The notes below the pieces were generated by a model. The model was not told the DNA's origin and made no database searches. It saw only the letters and a list, made by a program, of their open reading frames with translations. A stretch of DNA of 46,638 nucleotides, from assembly GCF_001945525.1 (NCBI RefSeq), contig NZ_MPJW01000105.1:1-46638 (forward strand). Reading direction: 5' to 3'. This stretch comes from Ileibacterium valens (GTDB taxonomy: Bacteria > Bacillota_I > Bacilli_A > Erysipelotrichales > Erysipelotrichaceae). The translations under genes and the position numbers were made by a program. The stretch's first letter is position 1; every line of letters starts with the position of its first letter. Shown here piece after piece: positions 15,624 to 18,746 of this stretch.

Positions 15624-15680
15624 CCTGCATCGAAATAAATTGAAGCGGATTTTTATTCGATGCAGGTTTTTTTGTTTTTG
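15624..15680 (+). terminator. Rho-independent terminator
   Basis: CCTGCATCGAA (15624-15634) pairs with TTCGATGCAGG (15656-15666), followed by TTTTTTT. It ends the priA-to-thiN gene run 124 bases after the last stop codon. Confidence 0.9.
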
Positions 15681-15744
15681 ATATCTGGATACCGGTAAAG
15701 ATTTCTTGAAATAGTCCATAAACAGATAAAGAAAGGAGATATGA

Positions 15745-17046
15745 ATGCGCCAGAAAAAACTCGACAGAATCTTTCGCATCATTTTAATTATTATCTTATT
15801 CATCGTCGGATTTCTTTGTGTATTCGATCCGCGAATCGTCTGGGATTTCTTCATGGATGCGGCTTTGATCTTTTCTTTATTCAATGGATTCAGACTGGTC
15901 ATTAAAGGATTTTCCAGACATTCCATTCGACATTTTTTACTTGCGGTACTGGCTTTTGCCTTTGCGAGTGTCCTGATGTTTTCATCGATGATTCCAGAGT
16001 GGGTCATTCGAGTTTCATTTGGAACCTATTCGATGCTGATGGGGATCTCGATGCTTATTCAGCAGGGAATTTATATCTATGAAAGTGTGCGCAGACCATT
16101 GTTAAACTGGATGTTTTCAGCTGCATATATCATGATTGGTTTTTTGCTGTTATTCACGCCGAGAATTTCAAAAGAATTTTTGATTCGGCTGTTCGGGTGC
16201 TACTTCATACTTCTGGCTATTCGTTACGTTTCCGATATCCAGAATCTGACCAATCCAAACTACACCTGGAAAAGAACATTTCATATTTCATTACCGACGG
16301 TTTTTGCCGCATTGATCCCTGACTGGACTCTGCAAAAAATCAATAACCATTTCAAGGAAGGGATGGATGTTGAAACCTATCCTTTAAAAAGCGATAAAGA
16401 GCCAATCCTGAAAGCCATGGTTCATATTGGACCGGAAGGGTTTCAGAAAGTCGGCCATTTCTCCTTTGCCTATAAGGATATTGTATTTTCTTATGGTAAC
16501 TATGATCATGATTCGGATCGTTTAGGAGGACTGTTGGGTGATGGAGTATACTTCAATGTTCCGCTCTGCCTGTACCTGCCAAATATTATTCAATATGAGC
16601 ACAATACAATCTTTGAGTATGGCATCCAGATTACCGAAGAACAGGAAAAGCAGATGGATCATCTGATTCAGAATTTACGCGATTCCTCCTACAGGTGGTA
16701 TACCCGAATCGAAAGAGAAGATGGATATCTTCATTTTCGGGATTATGAGTCCGATTATGGATGCCGGCTGCATTATCGAACAGGAGCCAAATTTTATAAG
16801 ATTCGAAAAGGACGTTTTAAAACCTATTGGGTTCTTGGAGAAAACTGTGTCGTATTTGCTGATCTGATGTTGGGAATGATTGGAGCGGATATCCTAAGCA
16901 TGAGAGGTGTGATCACTCCTGGAACCTATTTTGATTACTTACAGGAAGAATACGAAAAGGAAAATTCACCGGTTGTCTCCTGCGTGATTCATCCATACCG
17001 TCCATTGGATTCGCAGGATCCGCTCTATAAGCCTGATCACGATTAA
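15745..17046 (+). CDS. membrane protein: DUF308/HdeD-like helices plus His/Asn-Cys papain-like domain (paralog A)
   Basis: 433 residues. The first ~200 hold about six short membrane helices in hairpins, like DUF308/HdeD proteins. A soluble domain (about 225-410) follows, with VGHFSF (His238), FSYGNYD, FEYG, YRWY, YESDYGCRL, RTGAKF, TYWVLGENCVVFA (Cys368) and GVITPGTYFDYL. A GH early and an NC later, with YGN after the His, recalls permuted papain-like enzymes (DUF4105, YiiX, LRAT-like); this is inference. A thiol hydrolase or transferase acting at the membrane is possible. GAAAGGAGATATGA precedes the ATG. The downstream gene is its paralog. Confidence 0.6.
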   Translation: MRQKKLDRIFRIILIIILFIVGFLCVFDPRIVWDFFMDAALIFSLFNGFRLVIKGFSRHSIRHFLLAVLAFAFASVLMFSSMIPEWVIRVSFGTYSMLMGISMLIQQGIYIYESVRRPLLNWMFSAAYIMIGFLLLFTPRISKEFLIRLFGCYFILLAIRYVSDIQNLTNPNYTWKRTFHISLPTVFAALIPDWTLQKINNHFKEGMDVETYPLKSDKEPILKAMVHIGPEGFQKVGHFSFAYKDIVFSYGNYDHDSDRLGGLLGDGVYFNVPLCLYLPNIIQYEHNTIFEYGIQITEEQEKQMDHLIQNLRDSSYRWYTRIEREDGYLHFRDYESDYGCRLHYRTGAKFYKIRKGRFKTYWVLGENCVVFADLMLGMIGADILSMRGVITPGTYFDYLQEEYEKENSPVVSCVIHPYRPLDSQDPLYKPDHD

Positions 17047-17106
17047 AAAACCGATAGACATGGTTCGGACACAGACAACGTATGAATACTGAGTTTACAG
17101 CCTGTC

Positions 17107-17155
17107 AAAAGACTACCTGGTTCAACTTTCAGAGATTACAGGGGGTCTTTTTTTC
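17107..17155 (+). terminator. probable Rho-independent terminator
   Basis: AGAC and CCTG (17110-17119) pair with CAGG and GTCT (17139-17148) with an imperfect middle, followed by a T-run. It separates the two paralogous membrane-protein genes. Confidence 0.6.
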
Positions 17156-17322
17156 GTTGTACTTATTATAGTCTTGAATAAATCTGATAAATTCATATTC
17201 GGGACAGCCAGTAAAGAATTTTTTTCAGATCTTCAGGAATCGTTTTTAAAGCCGATATATTGAGACAATTTCAAATTTTAGTAGGATGACTGGTCAGCCT
17301 GAACCCATTTCAATTCTGAGAA

Positions 17323-17331
17323 TGGGATAAT
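17323..17331 (+). promoter_or_regulatory. extended -10 promoter at the start of paralog B
   Basis: TGGGATAAT fits an extended -10 (TGnTATAAT with one change). Six bases (GGGCCC) separate it from the ATG at 17338, so +1 would fall at the start codon. No -35 box or Shine-Dalgarno sequence is visible. Confidence 0.5.
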
Positions 17332-17337
17332 GGGCCC

Positions 17338-18627
17338 ATGAAACAAATAAAACAATGGGAATTAGTAGCTGGCTGTCTGTTTCTCGGGCTGGGCCTTGGA
17401 TGTATTTTTTATCCATCATTGAATGCTGATCTGTTCTTTTATCTGGTCGCTGGCGCATTGAGTATTTCGGCAGGGGTTTTCTGGTTTCAGGCGATTCGTA
17501 AACCGCAGGGGTTCATGATCGCAAGTGCCTTGATCTGCACGATTGGAGCGATTATTCTGTGGATGCATCGTCTTGAATCAGAGGACCTGATCATCAACTG
17601 TTTTGCCTTCTACATGTTCTTTAATATGTTCTGTGAAGGAGTTCAGTGGTTTTTAGATATACGCGATCGATCGAATCATGTCTGGGCCCATGCGTTGATG
17701 ACTGTCGTTTATGGTTTCTTATGCTTTTTTTCCTGGTTCTATAAGGATATGGATTCAAGAATCTTAATGCGGCTGTTTGGAATTTATCTGTTAATTCAGG
17801 CTTTTCAGATGTTTAATCAAATCTATGCCTTTTCGCATCCGCAGTCTTCAAGATCGTACACCTTTGCTAGATGGACGGCTTTGCCGGTCTATTTCGTCTC
17901 AGTATTGCCTTCCCTGATTTTACGTTACATGCTTTTAAACAAAATGAAGGGTAAGAAGGCTGATTATTCAGAACGAAAGAACGATCAGGAAGTTAACCTT
18001 CGTGTCTTTATCCATACGGGATTAAAAAGCGAACATATATTTGGACATATGACCTTTTCATATCAGGGTATCATGTTCTCCTATGGCAATTACGATAAAG
18101 AAGAAGAAAAATTTTTCCGCAGTGTCGGTCCGGGGATTTTCTTTACCGTTCCAGCAAACATTTACATCAATAACAGCTGTATTTATGAAGGAAGTACATT
18201 ATTTGAATATGGACTGCATATTGATCCGCAACAGGAAGCAAAACTTGAAGAACTTGTCCGAGACATATTCAATCATACGTATCGATGGTATTCACCCATT
18301 GAGCAGGATCCATTGGGCAGAGAACACTTCCATAAATACGAATCTGATTATGCTTCCAGGCTTTCTTTTCGAACGGGAGCAAAATTCAGGAAATTTTACA
18401 GTTCGCAATGGAAAACGTATTGGATACTCGGAGACAACTGCTCCTTATTTGCCTCCGATCTTCTATCTCAGATTGATCCTGGCATTGTGCATAAAAGCGG
18501 AGTTGTTACCCCTGGAGAATATTTCGAATTTTTTGAGGAGTGCTTTGCCGATCCAAAATCGAATGTTGTTTATAAAGCCTGGCATTCAGCCGAGGTTCCT
18601 TCCACCCTCTATCCAACTCTCGCTTAA
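17338..18627 (+). CDS. membrane protein: DUF308/HdeD-like helices plus His/Asn-Cys papain-like domain (paralog B)
   Basis: 429 residues, same architecture as the preceding gene: about six N-terminal helices, a basic segment near 200-215 (NKMKGKKADYSERKN), then the soluble domain. Conserved with paralog A: GHMTFSYQGIMFSYGNYD (His237), FEYG, YRWYSPI, YESDYASRL, RTGAKF, KTYWILGDNCSLFA (Cys368) and GVVTPGEYF. The helices are more diverged than the soluble domain. The invariant His and Asn-Cys point to a shared active site. The start lacks a ribosome binding site and sits at the expected +1 of an extended -10, so the mRNA may be leaderless. Confidence 0.6.
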   Translation: MKQIKQWELVAGCLFLGLGLGCIFYPSLNADLFFYLVAGALSISAGVFWFQAIRKPQGFMIASALICTIGAIILWMHRLESEDLIINCFAFYMFFNMFCEGVQWFLDIRDRSNHVWAHALMTVVYGFLCFFSWFYKDMDSRILMRLFGIYLLIQAFQMFNQIYAFSHPQSSRSYTFARWTALPVYFVSVLPSLILRYMLLNKMKGKKADYSERKNDQEVNLRVFIHTGLKSEHIFGHMTFSYQGIMFSYGNYDKEEEKFFRSVGPGIFFTVPANIYINNSCIYEGSTLFEYGLHIDPQQEAKLEELVRDIFNHTYRWYSPIEQDPLGREHFHKYESDYASRLSFRTGAKFRKFYSSQWKTYWILGDNCSLFASDLLSQIDPGIVHKSGVVTPGEYFEFFEECFADPKSNVVYKAWHSAEVPSTLYPTLA

Positions 18628-18631
18628 CTTC

Positions 18632-18657
18632 AAATCAGTCTTCGGACTGATTTTTTT
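18632..18657 (+). terminator. Rho-independent terminator with TTCG loop
   Basis: AAATCAGTC (18632-18640) and GACTGATTT (18645-18653) form a perfect 9-base stem closed by a TTCG tetraloop, followed by TTTT. It lies directly after the stop of paralog B. Confidence 0.92.
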
Positions 18658-18746
18658 GATATTTTACCTACTCGGCTGCATCAGGATGATCAAGCTATAA
18701 TTAAATATGAATGAACAAATAGATTTCAATTGGAAAGGAATAGGTT

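Follow-up and report, generated by a model that had tools for sequence, protein, structure and literature searches.

A stretch of 46,638 nucleotides ("the window") from a gut-type Firmicute contains two adjacent genes whose products join a set of membrane helices to a soluble domain with a conserved His and an Asn-Cys motif, an arrangement that raises the question of what the soluble domain does and on which side of the membrane it does it. The features that bear on this question are collected in Table 1. Both genes are intact, of 433 and 429 codons, as they were first described, and they are divergent paralogs with a common architecture. The motifs listed in the preliminary description (His238 in the first protein and His237 in the second, YGNYD, YESDY, RTGAKF, Cys368 in both, and GV(I/V)TPG) are all in place, and the six helices that it put ahead of the soluble domain are seen in the AlphaFold model.

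Strong terminators flank the pair, one before gene 1 and one after gene 2, each far more stable than shuffled sequence (Table 1). The two genes had also been thought to be under separate control, with a terminator between them and a ribosome binding site for the first alone. The second half of this claim stands, as AGGAG precedes the ATG of gene 1 and no clear Shine-Dalgarno sequence is seen at gene 2. The intergenic terminator is weak at best: the hairpin folds no more stably than shuffled sequence, and a strict terminator scan lists none between gene 1 and gene 2.

Table 1. Coordinates of the paired genes, their predicted functional parts, and nearby control signals in the window (z, folding stability relative to shuffled sequence)
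Feature	Coordinates	Strand	Remarks
Intrinsic terminator before gene 1	15624..15674	+	Separates gene 1 from the thiN transcript; fold z -4.1
Shine-Dalgarno AGGAG of gene 1	15733..15737	+	Read from the sequence
Gene 1	15745..17046	+	433 aa; six-helix DUF308/HdeD-like domain and very probable permuted NlpC/P60 (LRAT/Lnb-like) domain; copy in the syntenic post-thiN position
Gene 1, six membrane helices, residues 2-169	15745..16251	+	AlphaFold secondary structure, hydropathy and charge profile
Gene 1, amphipathic/interface (elbow) helix, residues 185-204	16297..16356	+	Near-invariant Pro184 just before, invariant Pro192 inside; judged non-spanning
Gene 1, predicted soluble catalytic domain, residues 219-409	16399..16971	+	
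Gene 1, His238, predicted general base	16456..16458	+	Invariant, 51/51
Gene 1, Asp254, predicted third catalytic residue	16504..16506	+	50/51; by analogy to Glu64 of BcPPNE (PMC3142127)
Gene 1, Cys368 of the Asn-Cys motif, predicted nucleophile	16846..16848	+	51/51; helix start
Possible weak terminator between the genes	about 17107..17152	+	12-pair hairpin, 19-nt loop, U-tract; z -0.9
Gene 2, tandem paralog with the same layout	17338..18627	+	429 aa
Gene 2, predicted soluble catalytic domain (His237, Cys368)	17989..18564	+	Pfam Lnb_N, 20.4 bits, E 4e-4
Terminator after gene 2	18632..18660	+	Strict scan; fold z -3.9

Relatives and conservation of the soluble domain

The soluble domain was initially guessed to be a permuted papain-like enzyme of the DUF4105 or LRAT type, and the guess has held up; the domain is very probably a member of the circularly permuted NlpC/P60 (papain-like) superfamily. 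Among 24,736 Pfam families searched at E values up to 10, Lnb_N (formerly DUF4105) is the only one that matches the domain consensus (17 to 19 bits). It is matched by 10 of 49 family members at E up to 1. An Ileibacterium orthologue of gene 2 scores 22.8 bits, against a Pfam cut-off of 22.2, and gene 2 itself falls below that cut-off (Table 1); gene 1 has no Lnb_N match in Pfam. Most of the alignments span only approximately one third of the profile and therefore point to remote homology rather than clear membership. Of the 392 genomes sampled across the phylum, practically none has canonical Lnb_N.

The AlphaFold model (pLDDT 87 for the whole chain and 87.5 for the domain model) has His238 opening a strand and Cys368 opening a helix, and the arrangement so predicted is that of the circularly permuted NlpC/P60 enzymes; the order of the two residues, with the His preceding the Cys and both invariant, is also that of the permuted superfamily. 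A Foldseek comparison with viral models ranks a PPPDE protein first and LRAT proteins second and third, with weak statistics (E 0.025-0.12). Foldseek searches of the PDB with the whole model and with the domain gave nothing significant, and the only papain-like entries among the top 50 PDB matches listed, Tae4 and a parechovirus 2A protein, are both insignificant. A profile search of PDB sequences returned chance matches only, alignment to a single YiiX sequence with hhalign was insignificant, and PF05708 (YiiX/YaeF, C92) is not among the families listed for either the members or the consensus. Within the superfamily we read the domain as belonging to the LRAT/Lnb branch, for which the evidence is indirect.

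His238, Asn367, and Cys368 are invariant in all 51 aligned homologous domains, which come from many genera, a degree of conservation that, judged from the alignment, exceeds chance. Loss of the Cys across homologs, which had been named beforehand as one of two observations that would refute the initial reading, was not found. Asp254, Tyr250, and Lys352 are each kept in 50 of the 51 domains and Tyr338 in 44. The soluble part is also better conserved than the helices, as the preliminary description had it, with 41% versus 16% identity between genes 1 and 2 and family means of 35% versus 20%. The sole loss of Asp254, which is replaced by Ala, is in the tandem (second) copy of Ileibacterium (L001:6701-7987).

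The membrane domain and its orientation

The description of the helices as DUF308/HdeD-like is sound for the family, in which 40 of 49 members match DUF308 with an E value of 1 or below (the lowest being 1e-16) and several are above the cut-off, but less so for the window proteins, both of which are sub-threshold; the HdeD match to gene 1, also sub-threshold, has an E value of 0.002. HdeD/DUF308 proteins thus share the membrane domain, but the HdeD model is about 190 residues long and has no catalytic domain, unlike the window proteins.

The AlphaFold model consists of six long helices followed by the 20-residue elbow helix at 185-204, ahead of the soluble domain. The family-mean net charges of the N-terminus and successive loops are +1.3, 0.0, +2.1, +0.1, +1.6, -0.1, and +2.1, and this alternation is, as sequence patterns go, a clean N-inside signature for six crossings. 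Cysteines other than the catalytic one make up 1.33% of the domain, versus 1.53% of all neighboring ORFs and 0.25% of a small set of exported controls. From the positive-inside charge and the cytoplasm-like Cys content, the catalytic domain is predicted with reasonable confidence to lie on the cytoplasmic side. Compared with the other six, the elbow helix has lower hydrophobicity, yet it may form a seventh crossing that places the domain outside, because it reaches the hydropathy threshold for spanning in 27% of members and because the family-mean net charge changes from +2.1 before it to -1.6 after it.

An outward-facing domain would suit a lipoprotein N-acyltransferase, a Gram-positive counterpart of Lnb and LnsA, for which the elbow helix would be that seventh crossing. 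Lnb_N is the nearest named family, the change of charge across the elbow helix is in keeping with such a topology, and the DUF4105 clade has a Firmicutes branch, mentioned in PMC12994826. The related genomes also have Lgt (59 of 60) and very rarely Lnt (1 of 60), but carriage of the family is patchy (26 of the 60), and no linkage to lgt or lsp was seen. Moreover, Lit already acylates the lipoprotein amine, and Lit-family proteins are coded in 55 of the 60 related genomes. Because the domain is predicted to be cytoplasmic and Lit is present in 25 of the 26 carrier genomes, we consider lipoprotein N-acylation unlikely. Replacement of Lit by the window proteins is likewise not supported, since the two do not exclude each other.

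Given the prevalence of Lit, members of the order may commonly have lyso-form lipoproteins. Separately, the frame that holds lgt is about 480-500 codons long in many genomes of the family Erysipelotrichaceae; the two such frames that were read (L089:694-2127 and L091:362-1816) have an extension resembling a HAD phosphatase, and an hprK-like gene lies upstream of each. The lgt frame of the window genome itself is 276 codons.

Proposed chemistry and comparison with known systems

Lnb N-acylates lipoproteins, and Tox-Act1, which forms a sister clade of DUF4105, deacylates phospholipids (PMC12994826); N-acylation in Staphylococcus requires LnsA (PMC7387801), and a fatty acid is bound by YiiX (PMC3142127). 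As these characterized relatives act on acyl chains and a lipoprotein role is unlikely, we propose an inner-leaflet phospholipase A or acyltransferase, and we infer that one working through a thioester is the most likely job of the window proteins. Each gene product would be a membrane enzyme with a C-terminal domain of the circularly permuted NlpC/P60 fold and LRAT/Lnb type. Cys368, at the N-terminus of its helix, would be activated by His238 and oriented by Asp254, and would attack an acyl ester in a membrane lipid that is probably a glycerophospholipid, forming a Cys-acyl thioester. From this thioester the acyl chain would be handed on, either to water, as by a phospholipase A, or to an acceptor (a second lipid or an amine), as by a transacylase. 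On the cytoplasmic side, the catalytic domain would be held at the inner leaflet by the six-helix DUF308/HdeD-like domain together with the amphipathic elbow helix, and the tandem copy would be a later duplication that retained the catalytic residues. The acyl-thioester chemistry, the lipid substrate, and the acceptor are all suggested by analogy, as are the catalytic candidates His238, Asp254, Tyr338, and Cys368, which are analogous to His49, Glu64, Tyr127, and Cys154 of the BcPPNE catalytic set (PMC3142127). Taken as a whole, a pair of membrane-anchored LRAT/Lnb-type enzymes with acyl-thioester chemistry on inner-leaflet phospholipids is the explanation that we favor on balance. Our search found no biochemical evidence for any family member, and in the surveyed loci the neighboring genes are housekeeping or unrelated, with no recurrent lipid or lipoprotein partner.

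Each of the known systems resembles the window proteins in part. Lnb, the Bacteroides lipoprotein N-acyltransferase, has the permuted NlpC/P60 domain that is predicted here and shares the conserved His and Cys, and its Lnb_N family is the only Pfam match; however, according to Pfam, that domain is N-terminal and periplasmic, whereas here it is C-terminal, follows six DUF308/HdeD-like helices, and is predicted to be cytoplasmic. The Staphylococcus protein LnsA belongs to the fold group predicted here, comes from a Firmicute, and works with a membrane protein, LnsB, but it is only 189 aa long, is predicted to carry an export signal, and has a CPBP-like partner that is separately encoded (PMC7387801), in contrast to the single polytopic chain of the window proteins with the domain after six helices. 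Lnb and LnsA both act outside the membrane, unlike the predicted cytoplasmic domain here. LRAT and PLAAT (HRASLS) proteins have the permuted papain-like fold predicted here, with a His before an Asn-Cys, and LRATs are among the top viral-structure matches, although no sequence match was found and the membrane anchors differ. YiiX/YaeF (Peptidase_C92) and BcPPNE have a comparable permuted His/acid/Tyr/Cys set, with a fatty-acid pocket in YiiX (PMC3142127), but YiiX/YaeF gives no significant sequence match and YiiX lacks a membrane domain.

The NlpC/P60 superfamily also contains many peptidases, PPPDE members among them (PMC10318531), and one homologue of the window proteins adjoins an Amidase_2 gene, which would accord with a Cys peptidase or amidase that acts on a peptide or peptidoglycan instead of a lipid and uses the helices only as an anchor. 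Within the permuted group, however, the proteins that act on lipids, including Lnb, are closer relatives, and a cell-wall substrate is at odds with the predicted cytoplasmic side, so that this reading is improbable. The position of Tox-Act1 as a sister clade of DUF4105 (PMC12994826) could further suggest a related conflict or defense protein, but PADLOC gives no match, and the housekeeping cluster around the gene, which is conserved in six genomes, has no secretion or immunity partners, all of which makes such a role very improbable. Matches to PHROGs are weak and are limited to unnamed families and a membrane protein.

For inner-leaflet acyl-thioester enzymes, which we prefer to these alternatives, the superfamily is already known, but for the fusion to DUF308 and the apparent inward orientation there seems to be no earlier description; a literature search covering few subscription papers found no report of either. 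Within the DUF4105 clade, PMC12994826 already reports a Firmicutes-enriched branch, which may include the window proteins. We suggest only tentatively that these proteins represent an undescribed family of cytoplasm-facing LRAT/PLAAT-like phospholipid acyltransferases set in a DUF308/HdeD domain; in Erysipelotrichales and certain other Firmicutes they would remodel the inner leaflet, and they would give DUF308 a role in lipid handling. If so, the superfamily, in which the bacterial proteins of known role (Lnb, LnsA, and Tox-Act1) act on lipids or lipoproteins, would gain a bacterial branch that faces inward. The proteins would also provide the first enzymatic context for the DUF308/HdeD membrane domain, and would name a candidate lipid-remodeling enzyme in gut Firmicutes.

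Distribution, neighborhood, and history

Across the phylum, 31 of the 392 sampled genomes carry the family; most belong to the same family and order as the window genome, and a few to two other families of the class. One homologue is present in Monoglobus (Clostridia), where it is annotated just as "DUF308 domain-containing protein." A member is also carried on a human fecal scaffold deposited as "Bacteriophage sp." (MT835480.1; L088) amid folC-like, NUDIX-like, and FkbH-like genes, and given these bacterial-looking genes, the scaffold may be mislabeled bacterial DNA.

Six genomes have the gene after thiN, in a cluster that also includes stp, pknB, rsgA, and rpe (names from ORF reading), and in others the neighbors vary and include GNAT, Sir2, rubrerythrin, VanZ, and amidohydrolase genes. 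As the neighbors differ between genomes, the context is uninformative on function.

Phylogenetically, gene 2 groups with the Ileibacterium tandem copy, a separate copy in genome G003, and a third copy in the window genome with a support of 100/100, and the group branches by a long stem from within the thiN-linked clade, with its exact attachment weakly supported. Because of this nesting, the tandem copy is read from the tree as a duplication local to a small clade of Erysipelotrichaceae. All of the duplicate copies retain the His and the Cys. Two homologues, at L031 (G006) and L022 (G032), have a frame broken by one stop codon and are possibly decaying. The third paralog of the window genome (contig C185, L034:6358-7671; 437 aa), which also keeps the His and the Cys, lies on the opposite strand beside a purine-biosynthesis cluster.
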